DNA of 36,175 bases, taken from a bacterium. GTDB lineage: Bacteria; Cyanobacteriota; Vampirovibrionia; Gastranaerophilales; Gastranaerophilaceae. Positions 7,263-22,242 of this stretch are shown here, one piece after another; positions within the stretch are counted from its first letter, which is position 1; each line of letters opens with the position of its first letter. The notes beneath the pieces were generated by a model. That model was not told the origin of the DNA. It made no database searches and saw only the letters and a list, made by a program, of their open reading frames with translations. A program made the position numbers and the translations under genes. The stretch is from the NCBI GenBank assembly GCA_017505585.1, contig JAFVOZ010000024.1:1-36175 (forward strand), in the 5' to 3' direction.

Positions 7263-7976
7263 CTAACTCCCGATTTGTATTGATTTTTCGTATAGTGAAT
7301 CTATTGCTTGTATTAATTTTGTTTGCGCTGTCATTTGAGCATTAACGCGCAAAACGTCGGTTACTTCTCTGAACATATCAACGTTGGAGCGTTCAGTTCC
7401 GTATTGAGCAATTTTTTTAGTATCTTTTTCAAGCATTGCTTCGCCGGATTCTTCAGTTGTTGTATATCTATTACCGCCAACTTCTTTTAAACCTTCTGGG
7501 TTGTTGAATGTGACAAGCGGAATTGTGCCTTGATATTCAGGTGTGGATGTTTTTGTTTTGTATGTGTAAACATCGCCATTGTTTTTGATTTCAATTCTCG
7601 CGCTGTTTGGGTCAATTTTTATGCCGCCGCCAACCAAATCACCTGAAAGGGTTTTGATGTAACCTTCTTTATCTGTCGTGAAGTGTCCGTCACGTGTGTA
7701 ATAAATATTCCCTTCAACGCTTGTGATTGGAATATAGCCTGCGCCGTTTACCGCAACATCCAGCGGATTTTGAGTTCTTTGAATGCCGCCTTGAGCTGTG
7801 TTTGTTCTGAGTGCGCCTCTTGTGTAGCCTTCAACAGTCATAATTTCTTCAAAAGATACGCTTTTGTATGCTGTTGTGTTCATATTTGCAAAGTTTTGGG
7901 AATGATAACCCAATTTTTCAAATTGAGTCAGAGCATTTGATGTGGATTTTCTTATAATGCCTTGAAAATTAGCCAT
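7263..7976 (-). CDS. Flagellar rod/hook-basal-body protein, FlgF/FlgG family (copy 2)
   Basis: 237 aa. The N-terminus has the rod motif (KLGYHSQNFANMNTTAYKSVSFEEIM), the centre has the FlgE/F/G signature (NPLDVAVNGAGYIPI...YTRDGHFTTDKEGYIKT), and the C-terminus the usual ERSNVDMFREVTDVLRVNAQMTAQTKLIQAIDSLYEKSIQI. The DxSNVxxxxE C-terminal motif and size fit FlgG (distal rod) or FlgF. Its paralogue lies just upstream, so one of the pair is probably FlgG and the other FlgF; I cannot decide which. The pair shares an operon with flgB and flgC. Confidence 0.88.
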   Translation of the reverse strand: MANFQGIIRKSTSNALTQFEKLGYHSQNFANMNTTAYKSVSFEEIMTVEGYTRGALRTNTAQGGIQRTQNPLDVAVNGAGYIPITSVEGNIYYTRDGHFTTDKEGYIKTLSGDLVGGGIKIDPNSARIEIKNNGDVYTYKTKTSTPEYQGTIPLVTFNNPEGLKEVGGNRYTTTEESGEAMLEKDTKKIAQYGTERSNVDMFREVTDVLRVNAQMTAQTKLIQAIDSLYEKSIQIGS

Positions 7977-7983
7977 ATTTCAC

Positions 7984-8679
7984 CTAACTTCCTAATTGTT
8001 GTATTACTCTTGATAAATTGTTGCTTTGCAGATTATACATTTGCAAATTTGCTTCGAAGTTTCTTCTGTAAGGAAGAATTGCCATAATTTCTCTTGGCAG
8101 GTCAACGTTTGAGGCTTCTAAGTGTTGTTGAACAACATGAACTTCTGCTGCCCTTTCGCCTGTTTTCGAAACAATTCCGAATGTTGCAACGGGCACCATT
8201 TTATTTATTGACCTATCCAACATGGTGATATCACCCGCTTTGTTAACTTTGATATCGCTAAGTTTCTCGGGGAAAAATGGGAGTGTTATTTTAAGCCCGT
8301 TGTCTGAAATCACGTCTTCTCCAAGCAAGTTTTGAAGTTCGCCATTTTTTCCGATTTGAAATCTGCCGTCGCGAGTGAGCTTAATTGAGCCATCAGCTGC
8401 TTGAACTTGAAAATACCCTTTTTCACGAAGCGCAAAATCAAGCGGGTTATCTGTGTTTGCAATACGACCCACTGTATCATCTGTAGTTTTTGAAAGTGCT
8501 TGCGAACCAAGATACTCTGCAAAAGATGATATAACTGCTTCTTTTCTTTGGTAGCCAATTTTATCAAAACCTTGCAAGTTTTCGCCCGCAATAGCATAAA
8601 CATTCGCCGCAAGATGCATTGCACGAATTGAATCTACAAGACCGCCTTTGTTGTAACTTACATTACCTTTTATATTCAT
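7984..8679 (-). CDS. Flagellar rod/hook-basal-body protein, FlgF/FlgG family (copy 1)
   Basis: 231 aa. It carries the same architecture as its neighbour: the N-terminal motif is weakened (NVYAIAGENLQGFDKIGYQRKE), and the central signature is clear (NPLDFALREKGYFQVQA...LTRDGRFQIGKNGELQN). The C-terminus reads LEASNVDLPREIMAILPYRRNFEANLQMYNLQSNNLSRVIQQLG, close to the FlgF/FlgG end. GGTAAAT precedes the ATG. It begins the four-gene rod set (this gene, copy 2, flgB, flgC). It starts with MNIKGNVSYNKGG, unlike textbook FlgG (MIRSLWTAATGM), so lineage-specific divergence is marked. Confidence 0.85.
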   Translation of the reverse strand: MNIKGNVSYNKGGLVDSIRAMHLAANVYAIAGENLQGFDKIGYQRKEAVISSFAEYLGSQALSKTTDDTVGRIANTDNPLDFALREKGYFQVQAADGSIKLTRDGRFQIGKNGELQNLLGEDVISDNGLKITLPFFPEKLSDIKVNKAGDITMLDRSINKMVPVATFGIVSKTGERAAEVHVVQQHLEASNVDLPREIMAILPYRRNFEANLQMYNLQSNNLSRVIQQLGS

Positions 8680-14342: not shown

Positions 14343-15989
14343 ATGTTTTTTGAGGAAGAAACTAAAGATACACACGGGAATATGGACGATTACGACTTGG
14401 ATATAGAACAAGGCGAATCTGTTAGCTGGGATAAACTTCTTGATGATAAAGATGATCTTGATGAACCTGCTGATTTGGAAACCAAAAAAAATCCCGATGA
14501 TGAAGATATCACGGATAAACTTTTGAACATGGATGATGATTCTTTCGATGCTTTTGTTGTGAAACAGCAGCAAGCTGCAGCAGATAATCCCGAAGGGGCT
14601 TCAAGAGTTGCAAATGAAGTGGATTTTGATGAATTTTTGTTAGACGATCTTGAAGAAGAAACCGAAGACGCTCTTAAAAAAGCGGTTAAGCATGATTTAG
14701 CTTCGGATAACACCTATGCCCCAGAAGTTGTTCAAGAAGAAGATTTTGAAGAAGATGAAGATACGTTTGATTTCATCCAAGAAGAAGATGATGTCCAACC
14801 TGCTGCGCCTGCGGTGCAAACTGAATCTCAAAATATTCAACAAGAAATAGCGCAAATTAATGATTTAGATGAGGAAGAGGAGCCTGCTCTTCAATATGTT
14901 CAAGCTGAAGAAAAAGGATATGAAGTAGAAACCGCGGAAGCTTTTGTTGACGAAGAAGAAGATTTTAATCCTGATCAATTCGCAGAAGCAACACCTGATG
15001 TTCCTGCTTTAGCCGGCAAACCTCAAGCTCAAACGGATGTAAATTATAATCGTCCTGAAACGCCTCGAGCTGCAAATGGAAACTTCACACAAAGACAACA
15101 AGAAAACGTGCCCAAAAAACAGAATTCTTCTATGATGACAATTTTGCTCGCTCTTGCATTGCTTGCAGGGGGCGGCTATTATGCATATACAACTTATGGT
15201 GATCAATTGAATCTTGGTGGCACAAGTGAAGAAGCAACGATGGAAGTTGCGCAAGATGAATCACTGGCTGGGGCACCTCAGGGTGATACTTCAGCCGTTC
15301 CTGCGCCACCTGCGGACGCAAGCGATGTGCCAATGCCACCTGCAGAAGTTGGTGATGTCCCTGCACCACCTGTTGAAGCTGGTGCACCGAGTGCTGAGGG
15401 TAAGCCAAATGCAGATGTTAAACCGCCTGCGGATACTCAAGCAACTAAAAGCGTTTCTAAAGCAATCGAGCAAGGAAGAACAAAAATTTCAAAAGATAAA
15501 ACTGAAGATAAAACTAAAACAAGTATTCAAGTTGTCACAACAGGCAGGTTAAATCCATTTGTTCCTGTGGGTAATTTGAATAACATCGGTTTTATAACAT
15601 CTCCAAAAATTGATATTTTGCCACCATCAGAAACTTTGGCTGAACCTGATCCATTGCTTGATAAACTTATGAGTATTAAAGTTTCAGGAATTTTGTATGA
15701 CGGAGTAAATTCTTCTGCTGTAATCAACCTTGGCGGCGTGGATTACTTTGTTCAAAAAGGCGACAAAATTGACAGTTTCACGGTTGTTGATATTACAAAA
15801 ACAACAGTTGCGATTAAAGAAAAGAACAATATTTTCTCTGCTTCAATCGGTCAAACTTTTACAGGAACTGAAATTATTAAAGGTCAAACACAAATTCAAA
15901 GACAAAACAATACGGTTGTAAGGCAATATACGACCGCGTCAGATATTAACATCAATACAAACAACAATAATAATAACAACAATCGATAA
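14343..15989 (+). CDS. Pilus assembly protein, PilP/GspC-like, with acidic cytoplasmic domain
   Basis: 548 aa. Residues 1-215 are extremely Asp/Glu-rich and probably disordered, then VPALAGKPQAQ (220-230), one membrane segment (about 264-283), a periplasmic Pro/Ala linker with three imperfect VPxPPxxxxD repeats (about 319-347), GRLNPFVPV (401-409; the RxPF motif typical of PilP), and a small beta domain (about 440-505: IKVSGILYDGVNSSAVINLGG...YFVQKGDKID...VAIKEKNNIFSASIG) like the HR domain of PilP/GspC that contacts the secretin. It ends in poly-Asn. In PilP/GspC proteins this domain couples inner membrane to the secretin. It lies 20 bp upstream of the secretin gene. The ATG has no clear ribosome site; a second ATG at 14382 is possible. 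Confidence 0.78.
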   Translation: MFFEEETKDTHGNMDDYDLDIEQGESVSWDKLLDDKDDLDEPADLETKKNPDDEDITDKLLNMDDDSFDAFVVKQQQAAADNPEGASRVANEVDFDEFLLDDLEEETEDALKKAVKHDLASDNTYAPEVVQEEDFEEDEDTFDFIQEEDDVQPAAPAVQTESQNIQQEIAQINDLDEEEEPALQYVQAEEKGYEVETAEAFVDEEEDFNPDQFAEATPDVPALAGKPQAQTDVNYNRPETPRAANGNFTQRQQENVPKKQNSSMMTILLALALLAGGGYYAYTTYGDQLNLGGTSEEATMEVAQDESLAGAPQGDTSAVPAPPADASDVPMPPAEVGDVPAPPVEAGAPSAEGKPNADVKPPADTQATKSVSKAIEQGRTKISKDKTEDKTKTSIQVVTTGRLNPFVPVGNLNNIGFITSPKIDILPPSETLAEPDPLLDKLMSIKVSGILYDGVNSSAVINLGGVDYFVQKGDKIDSFTVVDITKTTVAIKEKNNIFSASIGQTFTGTEIIKGQTQIQRQNNTVVRQYTTASDININTNNNNNNNNR

Positions 15990-16009
15990 ATTGAAATCAG
16001 GAGTTTAAT

Positions 16010-18010
16010 ATGTTTTCGTTAACAAAAAATACTACTTTAAGAAAAATAATGGCATCAGGGATATTGGTTGCGTTTACATCCCTATCAGCAAGTGCCATTA
16101 ATAATGTTAAACTGAAAGACAGTGTTCCGACAAGTTTATCAGGTTCTGCAAAAGTAGAAACTATGAGAATTAACTCAAGTGCATATATCACCCAATCTAA
16201 TCAAAAGATTAGTCTTTCTTTGAGAGATAGTGATGTTAAACAAGTGCTTAGAATGTTTGCGACAAAAGCGCAAATGAACATAATCTTCCATGATTCTGTT
16301 AACGGTAAAATCACTCTTGATTTGGTTGAAATTCCGATTAATGAGGCGTTTGAGCTTGTATTAGATACAATGGGGCTCACATACTTTAAAGACGGTAAGA
16401 CAATTGTTGTTGCAAAAAATGACTCGAACGCTGAAATCTCAGTTGCAAAAAGAAACTTAACAACAATTCCAGTGAAATACGTAAATGCAATCGATGTTGC
16501 AAACTTTTTGAACAAAAACGTGTTTGGTGCAAAAATGATGGGCCTTTCAACAGGCGAAATTGTTACTGTGAATAGCATTTCAAACGAATTAATTATTTTT
16601 GGTTCAGAAGCTGATATAGATGCTGCTAATAAAATTATAGAAAAATTTGATAAAAAACAGCCAATGACAACATTTGTTGTTAACCACACAACTCCAAAAG
16701 AAATGGCTGAGTTGATATGCAGTGCGTTTTACTCTCAAGGAACAAGCGGTGGCGGTTCAGGCTCAGGCGGAGGTTCTTTAGGAGGCTTTGGAGGCGGTCT
16801 GGGTTCAGGCTCTGGTTCATCTGGTAGCTTAGGTTCGCCATCCGGTAGTACAGGTTCTCCATTAGGTGGTAGTGCAACGGGCTTTGCAGGGTCAGCAGGT
16901 AGCAGCTCAGGCTCAGGCGGCGGCGCAGGTTCTTCTGTAACTGATGTTCAATTGGGCGGTGGTACAGTTGCTTGTACGGTAGAAAACTCTAATGTTACCT
17001 CTGAACATGTTGCTTTCGGTGCGTTTAAAACAAGAGTTGTGTATTTCCCTCAATTAGGTACTATAAGTATTTATGGTGCATCTGATGAGCAAATTGCTGT
17101 GATTTCAGATTTCATCAAAGATAATGATAAAAAACAATTAATGGCTTATCTTGAAATGAGCATTTTAGAACTCAATGAAGCAGGCTCTAAGCAATTTAAT
17201 ACAGCTTGGCAAGCGACAACTCCATTTACAAGTTTCGCATTTGATGGTGAAAAGTTTCAAATGGGTACACAAGCCACAGCAGCAACTTCTGTTTTGATAA
17301 ATGGTGGAACTGCTGCAGCAAGTTGGGTTGACGATATAAAGCCGATTTTCGGTGTTGATAAAGGTTCTTATGTTTATAAAAACGGAAAGATATTACCAAC
17401 AGAAAATTCTTATTACCCGGGTTTACAATTGATGCTTACGGCAATACTTCAAAACGGGAACGGAAGATCACTTGCAAATCCAAAGATGATGATTACCAAT
17501 GGGCAAAAAACGGTTCTTGATATGACATCTGATTATATTGAATCAGTTGATGCAGAATTACAAGATAACCAAATGTCAAGTGGCGGTGCTTTGGTTGAAA
17601 GAACTCTTAATATTGAAAGTGATTTGGGCTTAAAGGTTGAGCTTATGCCTTTTATTACGCCTGACGGATATGTTAACTTCAATATTCGCCCGTCATATTC
17701 AACAATTAAAGAGCAACCGGAATATGATTTAACAGGAACAAATAAGCTTGAAATTGCTGCTACTCTTTTGCAAAGAAGAAATATTGAACTTAATAACTTA
17801 AGGGTAAAAGATGGTGAAACTCTTGTTATTGCAGGTCTTATTAATGAAACTGAAGCCCAAAAGGTAAACAAAGTTCCTTTCTTTGGTGATTTACCTATTA
17901 TAGGTTTTATGTTTAGAAATTCTAGTAATACAAAGACTAAATCAGAACTAGTTATTATGCTCACGCCACATATTGTATATGATGACGATGATGTTCCCGC
18001 TAATCTATAA
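16010..18010 (+). CDS. Secretin of a type IV pilus/type II secretion system (PilQ/GspD)
   Basis: 666 aa; AGGAG lies 6 nt before the ATG. A signal peptide (about 1-29, LVAFTSLSASA) directs export. A STN/N0-like domain follows (about 65-135: VKQVLRMFATKAQMNIIFHDSVNGKITLDLVEIP), then an N1-type domain (about 150-235). A Gly/Ser-rich insert (about 244-310) precedes the C-terminal secretin channel (about 350-660), with NGRSLANPKMMITNGQKTVLD, TLVIAGLINETEAQKVNKVPFFGDLPIIGFMFRN and SELVIMLTPHIV as family signatures. It forms the outer-membrane pore for pilus or pseudopilus. Located between the PilP-like protein and the ATPase. Confidence 0.95.
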   Translation: MFSLTKNTTLRKIMASGILVAFTSLSASAINNVKLKDSVPTSLSGSAKVETMRINSSAYITQSNQKISLSLRDSDVKQVLRMFATKAQMNIIFHDSVNGKITLDLVEIPINEAFELVLDTMGLTYFKDGKTIVVAKNDSNAEISVAKRNLTTIPVKYVNAIDVANFLNKNVFGAKMMGLSTGEIVTVNSISNELIIFGSEADIDAANKIIEKFDKKQPMTTFVVNHTTPKEMAELICSAFYSQGTSGGGSGSGGGSLGGFGGGLGSGSGSSGSLGSPSGSTGSPLGGSATGFAGSAGSSSGSGGGAGSSVTDVQLGGGTVACTVENSNVTSEHVAFGAFKTRVVYFPQLGTISIYGASDEQIAVISDFIKDNDKKQLMAYLEMSILELNEAGSKQFNTAWQATTPFTSFAFDGEKFQMGTQATAATSVLINGGTAAASWVDDIKPIFGVDKGSYVYKNGKILPTENSYYPGLQLMLTAILQNGNGRSLANPKMMITNGQKTVLDMTSDYIESVDAELQDNQMSSGGALVERTLNIESDLGLKVELMPFITPDGYVNFNIRPSYSTIKEQPEYDLTGTNKLEIAATLLQRRNIELNNLRVKDGETLVIAGLINETEAQKVNKVPFFGDLPIIGFMFRNSSNTKTKSELVIMLTPHIVYDDDDVPANL

Positions 18011-18021
18011 TCACAATTTAT

Positions 18022-20337
18022 ATGTCGAATGAATCACTCCAAAAATTAATAAAAAATGTAAATTTTGATTATGCTTCAAAGTTTGACAAAAAGACAATGG
18101 CTGCATTGTCTTTTTTGCCTGTCAAAATGAAGGGTGATACACTATATCTTGCAATTGCTGAAAATTCAAATAAAAAAGAGATAACAAATTATGCTGCACC
18201 TTTAGTAAATGCAAAAATAGGTTTTGTTGTTCTTCCTGATTTTGAGGATTTTGCAAAACTCTACAATGAACATTTGGCTGAACTTAACCCTGTTCAGGAA
18301 TCTGACAAAACGCATGATACAGCACAAGTTGTAATTCCTGAGCAAAGTGAGGATGATGAAATATCTCTTGAAGGTGACGATGATTTGATTGACCTTGATG
18401 AGGATACTGTTGTTGAGCTTAATCAAGAAGAACATTTTCAAGTGGTTGAAAAGAAAGAAATAAAAAAGGAGCAAGCTGAGCCAATAGTTCAGCAAGAACC
18501 AGAGCAAAGTTTTGCCGAAACTAAACCTCAAGTTCCTGCTCTTCAAAATAAACCTAAAGCAGCATCAGGTCATGTTAACAAAATTGCTGGTTCTGTTAAA
18601 AATGCAGGTGGAAAAAAACTCGGTGAAATTTTAATCGAAAGCGGTTTAATTACAGAAACTCAGCTTTCAATGGCACTTGTTGAAGCAAAAGCCTTAGATG
18701 TTCCTTTGGGTTCTGCACTTGTTAAATTAAATTATGTATCAATTGAGGATTTGAAAGATGCTTTGAGCATACAACAAGGTGTTCAAATGGCAACTTCAGA
18801 AGAAATTAAAGCGGAAGGTGATAATTCTTCTGCAATTTTGCCTGAAGTATTTATCAAAACAAACAAAGTTATACCAATTTCTTCAAAAAATAATAAACTT
18901 GTTATTGGTATGGTGAACCCAGGTGATACAGCGACAATTAATGAAGTTGTGTATTTGACCGGTATGGCACCTACCGTTATGATGATTACTCACTTTGAGT
19001 TTGAAAAATATATTGAACAATTTTATGGCTCAAGCTCAAAGAATGCGGCATCTGAAATTTTGGCGCAAATTAACACTGCTGAAGAAGAAATTGAACCAGA
19101 AGATAACCTTTTTGATCAAGTTAGCAAAGATATTGAAGACGCAACGGGTGTTGTTCCAAAAATTGTAAATAAAATTGTAACAATGGGTATTGATCAAAAA
19201 GCGAGCGATATTCACATTGAGCCGCGCTTTGATGGTTATGTTGTCAGATTCCGTTGTGACGGTATCTTAAAAGAAGTTATGAGAATTCCTGAGCAAATCA
19301 GAAAAAGTCTTGTTTCTCGTTTCAAAGTTATGTCCAGAATGAATATTGCAGAGCACAGGCGTCCTCAAGACGGTAACTTTGGTATTAAGTATAATAATAA
19401 AAAATATGATTTCCGTATCAACACTTTGCCTGTTGACGGCAAAGAAAAAGTTGTAATAAGAATTTTGGCTCCGGCCGCTTCATTGTCTGCAACAAAAACA
19501 GAAATTAATATTCCGGGGATGCTCCCTCAGCAGCTTCAACTTGTAAAGGATATGGTGACAGCTCCAAACGGAATTATTTTGACATCAGGTCCTACGGGTT
19601 CAGGTAAAACAACAACCCTTTATTCATTGATTAAAGCACTAAACGATGTAACCGTTAATATTACAACGATTGAAGACCCTGTCGAAATCAGACTTGAAGG
19701 TATTAACCAATCTGCAACAAACGCAAAGGCTGGTATCACATTTGCGGCTTGTATGAGAGCTATATTGAGACAAGACCCTGATATTATCCTTGTCGGCGAA
19801 ATCCGTGACTTTGAAACATTGGAAACGGCAATTTCAGCCGCTCTTACTGGTCACTTAGTGTTAAGTACAGTCCACACAAACTCCGCAGCTGCAACAGTTA
19901 CAAGGCTTATTGAAATGGGCGCTAAAGATTATCTCGTTTCTTCAACATTAACAGGTGTGCTTGCACAAAGGCTTGTAAGAAAACTTTGTCCACACTGTAA
20001 AGTACCATATAAACCAACGTTGGAAGAGGCTAAAAAGATTTTGCGCGATCCTAAAAGAGCAGAAGAGTTTACGCAAAACACAATCTATGGCCCAGGCGGA
20101 TGCGATCAATGTCAAAATTCAGGATATGCAGGCAGGCTTGGCTTATATGAAGTTATGGCAATTAATAAACAAATTCGTAAGTTAATTGCACAAAAAGCTC
20201 ATGATATTGAAATTGAAGAATACGCAGTTAATGAAAACGGAATGTTAACTCTTCAAGAAAGTTGTATTTCGCACATTAAAAGCGGCTTAACTTCAATAGA
20301 TGAATTTGTCCGTGTTCTTGGTCTTGCAACAGATTAG
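18022..20337 (+). CDS. Type IV pilus/type II secretion assembly ATPase (PilB/GspE)
   Basis: 771 aa, longer than most PilB (about 570). Residues 1-90 look like a degenerate MshEN-type domain; 95-165 is an acidic linker; VPALQNKPKA is at 171-180; a full MshEN domain (about 197-335; KKLGEILIESGLITETQLSMAL, then LPEVFIKTNKVIPIS) is of the kind that binds cyclic di-GMP in relatives. The ATPase core has Walker A GPTGSGKT (523-530), the Asp box TTIEDPVE, Walker B region ILVGEIRD and His box TGHLVLSTVHTN. A zinc tetracysteine is present (C656, C659, C694, C697), typical of PilB/GspE and not PilT. It powers extension. No ribosome site; a TATAAT overlaps the secretin stop. Confidence 0.94.
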   Translation: MSNESLQKLIKNVNFDYASKFDKKTMAALSFLPVKMKGDTLYLAIAENSNKKEITNYAAPLVNAKIGFVVLPDFEDFAKLYNEHLAELNPVQESDKTHDTAQVVIPEQSEDDEISLEGDDDLIDLDEDTVVELNQEEHFQVVEKKEIKKEQAEPIVQQEPEQSFAETKPQVPALQNKPKAASGHVNKIAGSVKNAGGKKLGEILIESGLITETQLSMALVEAKALDVPLGSALVKLNYVSIEDLKDALSIQQGVQMATSEEIKAEGDNSSAILPEVFIKTNKVIPISSKNNKLVIGMVNPGDTATINEVVYLTGMAPTVMMITHFEFEKYIEQFYGSSSKNAASEILAQINTAEEEIEPEDNLFDQVSKDIEDATGVVPKIVNKIVTMGIDQKASDIHIEPRFDGYVVRFRCDGILKEVMRIPEQIRKSLVSRFKVMSRMNIAEHRRPQDGNFGIKYNNKKYDFRINTLPVDGKEKVVIRILAPAASLSATKTEINIPGMLPQQLQLVKDMVTAPNGIILTSGPTGSGKTTTLYSLIKALNDVTVNITTIEDPVEIRLEGINQSATNAKAGITFAACMRAILRQDPDIILVGEIRDFETLETAISAALTGHLVLSTVHTNSAAATVTRLIEMGAKDYLVSSTLTGVLAQRLVRKLCPHCKVPYKPTLEEAKKILRDPKRAEEFTQNTIYGPGGCDQCQNSGYAGRLGLYEVMAINKQIRKLIAQKAHDIEIEEYAVNENGMLTLQESCISHIKSGLTSIDEFVRVLGLATD

Positions 20338-20345
20338 AGGTAAAA

Positions 20346-21566
20346 ATGCCAATATACGAATATACAGCGTTTAAAAATAAAACACAGCTTGTTCAAGATA
20401 AAATTGAGGCTGATAACTTGCAACACGCAAGAGCTCTTTTGATGAGGCAAGGGCTTGTGGCTTCAAAAATCAAAGAATACGGTCTTGATGAATCAAGAAA
20501 AGCGGCGCCTAAAAAAGCAAGAGTTGGGCATATGCCGGCACTTTCTTTGAAAGATAAAATCGATTTTACAACAAGTTTGCAGATGTTATCTGCAACAGGT
20601 ATTCCGATTATTGAAACACTTGCGTTCGTTGAAAACAATGCTGATTCAAACTCTGTTCGAAAATGCGCAATGGAGCTCAGGAAGCAAATCATTGGGGGTT
20701 CTTCCTTTGCAGAAACACTTTCAAAACACGTAAACGTTTTCGGTCGTGTATATGTCGGTCTTGTTGCAGCCGGCGAAGATTCAGGTGAAATGGATAAAAC
20801 TTTATTCAGAATGCTCGAACTTTTGAAAAAACAAGATGCTATCAAAAGTAAAATTTCAGGTGCAATGGTTTATCCTTGTGTAATTTTATCTTTTGCGTTT
20901 ATTGTAAGTTGTGTCCTCCTTGGTTTTGTATTCCCTGCATTTGAAGAAATGTTTATAAACCTTGGTAAACCACTTCCGTTAATTACTCAAATGTGTATTA
21001 ACGCAGGTAAATTTATTAAGAATTATTGGTATGTTGTAATACTTGGCACAATCGCCTTTGTTATTGCTTTTATTGCAATTATGAGGAACACTGTTACTCG
21101 TTCTTATGTTGATATGTTCTTGCTCAAAATTCCTGTAATTAATACAATGCTTAAGTTTTCGAACTTTTCAAACTTTTTGTCCGTAATGCAGGTTGCATAC
21201 GATGCAGGTATTCCGATTGTTGACTGTTTATATCTTGCAAACTTAACAATTGAAATTCTTGTTTTAAGAAGGTCACTGGATACAGCATCTGATTCAATCA
21301 GACAAGGTGCACAATTATCAACAGCCCTCAAAAAGACAGGTGAAGTTCCGAACATGATTGTATTTATGATTCAAACAGGTGAACAATCAGGTCGTTTGGG
21401 CGATTTGTTGACGCACGCTATCTACTTTATCGATAAACGCCTTGATGACACTATTGATAAATTCACCAAACTTATCGAACCTGTGATGATGCTTGTGATT
21501 GGTGGTTTGGTAATGGTCATGGCACTTGCTCTTTACTTACCGTTATTTGGCGCATATTTGGATTAA
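20346..21566 (+). CDS. Type IV pilus/type II secretion platform protein (PilC/GspF)
   Basis: 406 aa, normal length. It starts MPIYEYTAFKNK..., the usual GspF opening, and has two T2SSF domains (about 68-190 and 270-395; LQMLSATGIPIIETLAFVE and MQVAYDAGIPIVDCLYLAN), each followed by membrane segments (about 170-192, 220-245, 375-400). The motif GEDSGEMDKTLFRMLELLKKQ and its repeat TGEQSGRLGDLLTHAIYFIDKRLDD are typical. It is the inner-membrane platform to which the ATPase docks. AGAGG precedes the ATG by 6 nt, and it starts 8 bp after the ATPase stop. Confidence 0.95.
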   Translation: MPIYEYTAFKNKTQLVQDKIEADNLQHARALLMRQGLVASKIKEYGLDESRKAAPKKARVGHMPALSLKDKIDFTTSLQMLSATGIPIIETLAFVENNADSNSVRKCAMELRKQIIGGSSFAETLSKHVNVFGRVYVGLVAAGEDSGEMDKTLFRMLELLKKQDAIKSKISGAMVYPCVILSFAFIVSCVLLGFVFPAFEEMFINLGKPLPLITQMCINAGKFIKNYWYVVILGTIAFVIAFIAIMRNTVTRSYVDMFLLKIPVINTMLKFSNFSNFLSVMQVAYDAGIPIVDCLYLANLTIEILVLRRSLDTASDSIRQGAQLSTALKKTGEVPNMIVFMIQTGEQSGRLGDLLTHAIYFIDKRLDDTIDKFTKLIEPVMMLVIGGLVMVMALALYLPLFGAYLD

Positions 21567-21618
21567 TCTTTGTTACGTGCAAACAAAAACAGGGTATAAC
21601 AATCAAAAGAGGTGCTTT

Positions 21619-22242
21619 ATGTTTAATAAAAAATCAGCTTTCACGCTTGCAGAAGTTCTTTTAGTGCTTGCAATAATAGGCGTCATTGCAGCGGTCACAA
21701 TTCCTGCAATTATGCAGCAATCAAGCGAAAAGAAATTTGCAGCGTTAGCCAAAAAGACAATGTCTACTCTTCAAAATGCAATTGATCTTAAAATGGCAAC
21801 CGTACCAGTTGGTCCTGGGGATTTGCAAATGGGTCTTCTGGAATGGCTTCTTGACGGCGAAGATGATGGAACAAACACACTAAAAGGTGTTAAGGTAAAT
21901 AACAATTCTTCAACAATTCAGTTTCCTGACGGCGTGATTGTGTATTGGGGAAATGCTTTAAAGTGTACTAATCCCACAACTCCGACTGATAGACTTGGTT
22001 GTAACGGTACGACCTGTGGGTACGAAACAAGTTGTGCCGGTTGGTTTAGAATAGATTTAAATGGTGCAGATCCTCCAACGAAAACAACTTTACAAAATGC
22101 AAATGCTATTGTTTCCGCGCAAGGCACTAAAGGTTATGACCAAATATGGTTGAACGTTAGCAAGGATGGCAAATTACGTATTTATAGCCAAAATCCTGGT
22201 TCGCAGGAAGACATTCGTGCCAAAAAATATCTTGGTTTATAA
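21619..22242 (+). CDS. Type IV pilin-like protein (prepilin)
   Basis: 207 aa from the ATG at 21619; AGAGG lies 6 nt upstream, so the longer frame from 21526 is rejected. The leader MFNKKSA is followed by FTLAEVLLVLAIIGVIAAVTIPAIMQQ, a class III prepilin signal: cleavage after Ala7 would leave Phe1 and Glu5, both needed for pilin assembly. Ala rather than Gly at the cleavage site is notable. The globular part carries four cysteines in CTNPTTPTDRLGCNGTTCGYETSC plus GWFRIDLNG, then a conserved-looking end (KGYDQIWLNVSKDGKLRIY). It could be a major or minor pilin or a pseudopilin. It lies about 50 bp after the platform gene and closes the operon. Confidence 0.85.
   Translation: MFNKKSAFTLAEVLLVLAIIGVIAAVTIPAIMQQSSEKKFAALAKKTMSTLQNAIDLKMATVPVGPGDLQMGLLEWLLDGEDDGTNTLKGVKVNNNSSTIQFPDGVIVYWGNALKCTNPTTPTDRLGCNGTTCGYETSCAGWFRIDLNGADPPTKTTLQNANAIVSAQGTKGYDQIWLNVSKDGKLRIYSQNPGSQEDIRAKKYLGL

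Follow-up and report, generated by a model that had tools for sequence, protein, structure and literature searches.

Two proteins encoded in one pilus gene cluster of a Gastranaerophilaceae bacterium, a PilP-like protein (548 residues, 14343-15989, + strand) and a PilB-like assembly ATPase (771 residues, 18022-20337, + strand), share a 17-residue peptide that is probably too similar for a chance match. We lean, by a small margin over doubt, towards the view that each of the two proteins has a disordered acidic spacer that evolves fast, and that the peptide is a part of these spacers restricted to one genus, which was copied or converted, or arose by convergence, and then drifted, and which would act as a flexible tether. 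An unusual shared spacer is thus a likelier reading than an established docking site, because the motif and its core are absent from the 121 protein pairs of other genera, because half of the motif is lost in the only congener found, and because both stretches are predicted to be disordered; the excess of the match over composition, by a weighted score, is a further reason for this view. The window, that is, the whole stretch of DNA analysed, comprises the 36,175 nucleotides of contig JAFVOZ010000024.1, which is contig 11 of a 99-contig, 1.22-Mb assembly (GCA_017505585.1; genome G000 in our set) that is 73% complete.

The two stretches, FAEATPDVPALAGKPQA in the PilP-like protein (residues 213-229, 14979-15029, + strand) and FAETKPQVPALQNKPKA in the ATPase (residues 164-180, 18511-18561, + strand), are identical at 11 of 17 positions, with the pattern FAExxPxVPALxxKPxA. 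A first-pass annotation of this DNA had reported VPALAGKPQA at PilP-like residues 220-229 and VPALQNKPKA at ATPase residues 171-180, each preceded by an acidic region. Both positions are correct, and the acidic regions are present, Asp and Glu making up 31% of the PilP-like tail and 21% of the 80 residues that precede the N1 region of the ATPase. The similarity begins seven residues upstream of the VPAL motif, and it does not continue into the flanks, where all 13 residues aligned (seven before, six after) differ. The motif does precede the membrane span in one protein and the MshEN region in the other, as described, but not immediately: 33 residues separate it from the predicted helix at 263-285, and about 19 from the MshEN region starting at 199. 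AlphaFold gives no structure to PilP-like residues 121-260 (predicted local distance difference test, pLDDT, 39-49 by tens of residues, 45 at the motif), nor to ATPase residues 91-186 (32-46 by tens, 33-36 at the motif).

How surprising the match is depends on the score used. With a composition-weighted ungapped score, the two regions reach 39.0, which none of 5000 shuffles does (largest value 30.3), and fitting a Gumbel distribution to a second set of 5000 shuffles yields p = 7e-6. This score was picked after the match had been seen, and its null is perhaps slightly too permissive, because among the 19 other long-tail genomes (20 genomes from six genera, g1, g3, g22, g27, g37, and g38, count as long-tail, the window genome included) four have a best peptide pair reached by less than 5% of shuffles; these pairs are unrelated, and 9, 13, 21, and 37 of 1000 shuffles reach them by the weighted score in G038, G061, G144, and G132, respectively. 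Among the 435 protein pairs of the window, the shared match ranks second (38.3), after two flagellar FlgE/F/G-type paralogues (51.0), and the next pair reaches 27.8. With plain BLOSUM62, by contrast, the observed score is equalled or exceeded in 51 of 5000 shuffles, a weaker result which we attribute to the reward given to acid-acid runs, inflating the null.

These numbers bear on the alternative, already named in the first-pass annotation, that two low-complexity regions match by coincidence: two acidic, Pro/Ala/Glu-rich spacers would happen to agree over 17 residues, and the agreement would have been noticed among the many windows and pairs read. We consider this unlikely, since the weighted score lies above all 5000 shuffles, the Gumbel p value is still roughly 3e-3 after multiplication by 435 pairs, and the match leads every window pair bar the flagellar one by 10 units. 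The BLOSUM62 result nevertheless tempers this judgement, and the p values cover the window, selection across the wider scan being beyond them. Codon usage also fits an independent origin, with the same codon at 7 of the 11 identical residues where independent choice expects 4.9 (standard deviation 1.6).

That one of the two genes recently received the stretch from the other, within this genome, by DNA duplication or gene conversion is very improbable. The codons are identical over VPA and KP, and the stretches lie 3.5 kb apart in one cluster; nonetheless, the codons for F, A, L, and the final A differ synonymously, the 13 flanking residues aligned all differ, and only 34 of 51 bases are identical, so that this is no fresh DNA copy. 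At the DNA level, the VPALxxKP pattern occurs in the window genome assembly at these two places only, against a mean of 0.00 in window shuffles. Across the family, 18 of 146 genomes contain it (the window genome twice), but the reversed pattern, used as a control, is found in 22 of 146, and the matches across the family are therefore background. The looser pattern AExxPx[VL]P has four matches in the window genome and four in its congener, two of the four being these pilus genes; one further match in the window genome presumably lies in a hexapeptide-repeat enzyme, LpxA-like on reading.

For orthologues, we searched 146 genomes of the family, of which 133 contain a PilP-like match, and both genes could be read in 123; the other ten (G005, G019, G054, G067, G084, G090, G094, G110, G121, and G125) were left out because their ATPase is truncated or absent, or does not lie on the contig of the PilP-like gene. 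The PilP-like genes of the relatives were read by position, each taken to start with the first ATG in its open frame. VPALxxKPxA is confined to the window genome, where it accounts for one of the 123 PilP-like proteins and one of the 123 ATPases; the core AExxPx[VL]P occurs in two of each, namely in the window genome and its congener, and in none of the 121 pairs from other genera. When 37 PilP-like relatives outside the genus are aligned, most of them show gaps over most of the stretch, although L154 fills much of it, and the motif occurs in none. A common docking partner, one of the two suggestions of the first-pass annotation, is thus not supported, as the motif is conserved in the orthologues of neither protein; the shared match itself stands, and a duplicated linker, the other suggestion, may still account for it.

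The sole congener found, G001, has a PilP-like protein 72% identical and an ATPase 88% identical to those of the window genome; a scan for further congeners with two peptide patterns taken from the PilP-like N terminus returned a single locus, JAFQLC010000018.1 (goat caecum), which we take to be G001 itself. The congener keeps AExxPx[VL]P in both proteins and the KPxA half in neither, so that this half is seen in the window genome alone among the genomes examined. Past the core, identity between the two species drops to 2 of 10 residues in the PilP-like protein (222-231) and 1 of 10 in the ATPase (173-182).

Three observations sit badly with a drifting spacer. First, the core of the PilP-like protein (QFAExTPDVP) is kept at 9 of 10 positions in the congener, compared with 12 of the 30 preceding residues and 14 of the 30 in 232-261, a pattern that resembles constraint more than drift. 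Second, the residue following the core Pro is Ala in both proteins of the window genome and Ile in both proteins of the congener, a parallel change that drift would rarely produce and the best hint of joint change in the two proteins. Third, the genus is represented by two species only, so that conservation at the genus level is hardly probed.

The first two of these observations would also suit a genus-specific short linear motif, as would the fact that each species has the core in its PilP-like protein and in its ATPase. In that case, AExxPx[VL]P of the tail and of the linker would have a cytoplasmic partner in common, perhaps the PilM-like part of a PilM-PilN fusion, for which both proteins would compete or by which they would be bridged. 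Such a partner can be imagined, as genomes of the family encode a long protein with PilN and a weakly PilM-like region, and as Thermus PilM contacts the motor, linking PilF to the PilMNO platform according to the consulted part of PMC6325625. We nevertheless regard this alternative as rather unlikely. The ATPase core is kept at only 5 of 10 positions in the congener, hardly above the 33 of 75 of the linker before it, and the core is absent from the 18 long-tail genomes of other genera. Moreover, the match between tail and linker within the congener does not exceed chance: 2598 of 5000 shuffles reach the best BLOSUM62 alignment, which includes the core, and 311 of 1000 reach the best weighted score, which falls on a different peptide. 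In a cross-species BLOSUM62 control, 3602 of 5000 shuffles are as good as the window PilP-like protein against the congener ATPase, and 200 of 5000 as good as the reverse combination, which again picks another peptide.

The flexible-tether reading can then be laid out as follows. In the PilP-like protein, the spacer would run between the acidic tail and the membrane helix, and in the ATPase between the N-terminal domain and MshEN. The last common ancestor of the two known species of the genus probably already had the core AExxPx[VL]P in both proteins. The shared peptide would most likely have arisen when a few dozen bases were copied or converted, or when Pro/Ala-rich spacers converged, and have drifted since; its role would be that of a flexible tether and not of a conserved docking site. 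If the tail docks at all, this more likely occurs through its conserved N-terminal segment, discussed below.

The acidic regions have a wider distribution than the peptide. In the 20 long-tail genomes, the PilP-like tail has a median of 168 residues (30% Asp/Glu) and the ATPase linker a median of 102 (31% Asp/Glu), whereas the medians of the other 103 genomes are 22 and 3 residues under the same rules, which fail for some. The linkers are not uniformly long, six of them in g22 and g27 having 24-81 residues, and that of G129 (g27) is acid-poor (14% Asp/Glu). The acidic half of the earlier observation thus recurs in related genera, and the VPAL half does not. Tail length correlates with total ATPase length (rho 0.77, 103 of 123 genomes; the other 20 show no clear membrane helix with the first-ATG start, so that some N termini are possibly misread), also by genus (rho 0.69, 26 genera, 87 of 123 genomes usable, without tree correction). 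Repeated coevolution of tail and linker length, however, was ruled out as evidence by independent contrasts on a FastTree phylogeny of the ATPase (r 0.09); the correlation therefore reflects relatedness. In the tip order of this tree, whose branch support was not assessed, the 20 long-tail genomes are contiguous. Tail-linker pairs from matched genomes score higher than mismatched ones (permutation p 0.0013 for n = 20, 0.0016 in a separate run, 0.024 without the window genome), but this advantage is unclear when shuffling is done within genera (p 0.13 and 0.24), where few members per genus leave little power, and it fits genus-level composition.

A more promising region of the tail is its N terminus. 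Residues 1-48 (14343-14486, + strand), which include W29-D-K-L-L, are identical in the congener at 48 of 48 positions, and a W[DE]x[LIV][LV] motif lies at residues 19-34 in all 20 long-tail genomes; a differently written version of this pattern is found in 18 of the 20 and in 1 of the 103 others. Further along the tail, F[DE]xF occurs in 12 of the 20, from four genera. Both patterns were chosen after the alignments had been inspected. In the window protein, a helix is predicted at residues 29-37, with low confidence (pLDDT 51-57 by tens of residues). From this conservation, residues 1-48 are more likely to be the better docking candidate than the VPAL stretch.

Potential partners are encoded elsewhere in the family genomes. 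A PilN domain occurs in an open frame of mostly 540-640 residues in 91 of the 146 genomes (83 over the cut-off), and a PilM_2 match in 5, none over the cut-off. G121 has both, PilM_2 under the cut-off and PilN, in one 574-residue protein (L213, 1113-2837, + strand). The congener encodes a 587-residue protein (L211, 2442-4205, - strand) with only a weak PilN match (E 0.013), which may also contain a PilM part. A 563-residue frame in L214 (1945-3636, - strand) matched PilN in the genome search only. These open frames, which would have a GspL-like architecture, are separate from the pilus cluster of the window. In two loci scanned, a weakly PilO-like gene then follows (E 0.04-0.05, under the cut-off). 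No PilM-like and no PilN match was found in the window genome, which shows little given that the assembly is 73% complete. For a termite relative of the Gastranaerophilales, pilA, pilB, pilC, pilT, and pilD are reported in the consulted part of PMC5877343. In the listed titles and abstract openings on Gastranaerophilales pili, on PilB, PilM, PilN, and PilP, and on PilM-PilN fusions and GspL, neither such a shared motif nor an acidic PilP tail appears.

A bolder proposal, which we think quite improbable, is that the PilP-like proteins of the six genera are trans-envelope couplers. The HR domain, on the periplasmic side, would hold the secretin, while the tail, through W[DE]x[LIV][LV] and, in four genera, F[DE]xF, would dock on a PilM-like domain or the motor; AExxPx[VL]P would be an extra site of this genus on tail and motor, with one partner and joint change. 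If tail docking on the motor side were true, it would link secretin alignment directly to the control of the ATPase in the pilus machine. For now, the VPAL peptide is a peculiarity of one lineage, and the motif conserved near the N terminus of the tail and the membrane-anchored PilP variant deserve more attention.

The cluster itself (14343-22242, + strand) consists of the PilP-like gene, a PilQ-like secretin (16010-18010, + strand; Pfam Secretin E 2.5e-35, with STN and Secretin_N), the ATPase, a PilC/GspF-like inner-membrane platform protein (20346-21566, + strand; T2SSF E 1.5e-42), and a prepilin-like protein with an N-terminal methylation motif (21616-22242, + strand; N_methyl E 1.7e-5). 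The secretin has a long Gly/Ser-rich stretch (residues about 243-312) between its Secretin_N and secretin domains. The genome that carries this pilus cluster also encodes two adjoining flagellar FlgE/F/G-type rod proteins (7263-8679, - strand).

The ATPase is PilB-like. It contains an N-terminal alpha/beta domain (1-90), the disordered acidic linker (91-186), an MshEN region from about residue 199 (PF05157, E 2.6e-13), and a PilB-type T2SSE motor (375-764; PF00437, E 3.3e-124). Its best NCBIfam family is TIGR02538 (E 1e-164), yet at 549 bits it stays below the equivalog cut-off of 676. The c-di-GMP motif model NF053729 scores over its cut-off (50 versus 38 bits) at residues 199-251 (18616-18774), and the motor may therefore respond to c-di-GMP, judging from this match. 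The N-terminal domain (18022-18291) is ordered, and its helix-strand order resembles the second half of an MshEN domain; residues 1-91 show no sequence match to 267-340 as an internal repeat, and Pfam MshEN gives only E 0.14 on this domain.

The 548-residue protein is, going by its predicted structure, a membrane-anchored PilP/GspC-HR protein, with an acidic tail (1-262) that would lie on the cytoplasmic side, a membrane helix (263-285), a linker, and a PilP/GspC-HR beta domain (437-501). Searches against Pfam (threshold E 0.001) and NCBIfam (E 0.01) assign it to no family. In a Foldseek search of the PDB, the 12 best matches are PilP or GspC-HR entries or pilus/secretion assemblies (3jc8, 4av2, and 6hcg; the chain identity is not stated in the matches to 3jc8 and 4av2), with probabilities of 0.92-1.00. 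The best is 3oss_C (TMt 0.82), at E 3e-3, and no match falls under E 0.001, because most of the query is disordered. An asparagine run (NTNNNNNNNNR, 15954-15986) closes the C terminus and is missing from the congener.

Compared with known systems, the ATPase shares the T2SSE motor and the MshEN region with PilB, MshE, and Thermus PilF, and a model of its residues 1-363 matches, by Foldseek, domains of MshE, Xanthomonas PilB, Thermus PilF, and XpsE. Unlike in PilB, MshE, and Thermus PilF, a 96-residue disordered acidic linker stands here between the N-terminal alpha/beta domain and MshEN. The PilP-like protein resembles type IVa PilP in its beta domain, which matches the PilP structures 2ivw, 2y4y, and 2lc4, and in the secretin gene located directly 3' of its own. 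In the consulted part of PMC3724824, Myxococcus PilP interacts with PilQ and PilP is described as an inner-membrane lipoprotein. The protein here differs from such a lipoprotein, since its translation has, by eye, no N-terminal signal peptide or cysteine, and instead a membrane helix preceded by a 262-residue acidic tail. With GspC, whose HR domain (3oss_C) is the best fold match, it shares a single membrane helix ahead of the HR domain. The cytoplasmic N terminus of GspC is short, whereas the tail here is long and acidic, and, unlike in type II secretion, the neighbouring genes include a PilB-like ATPase.

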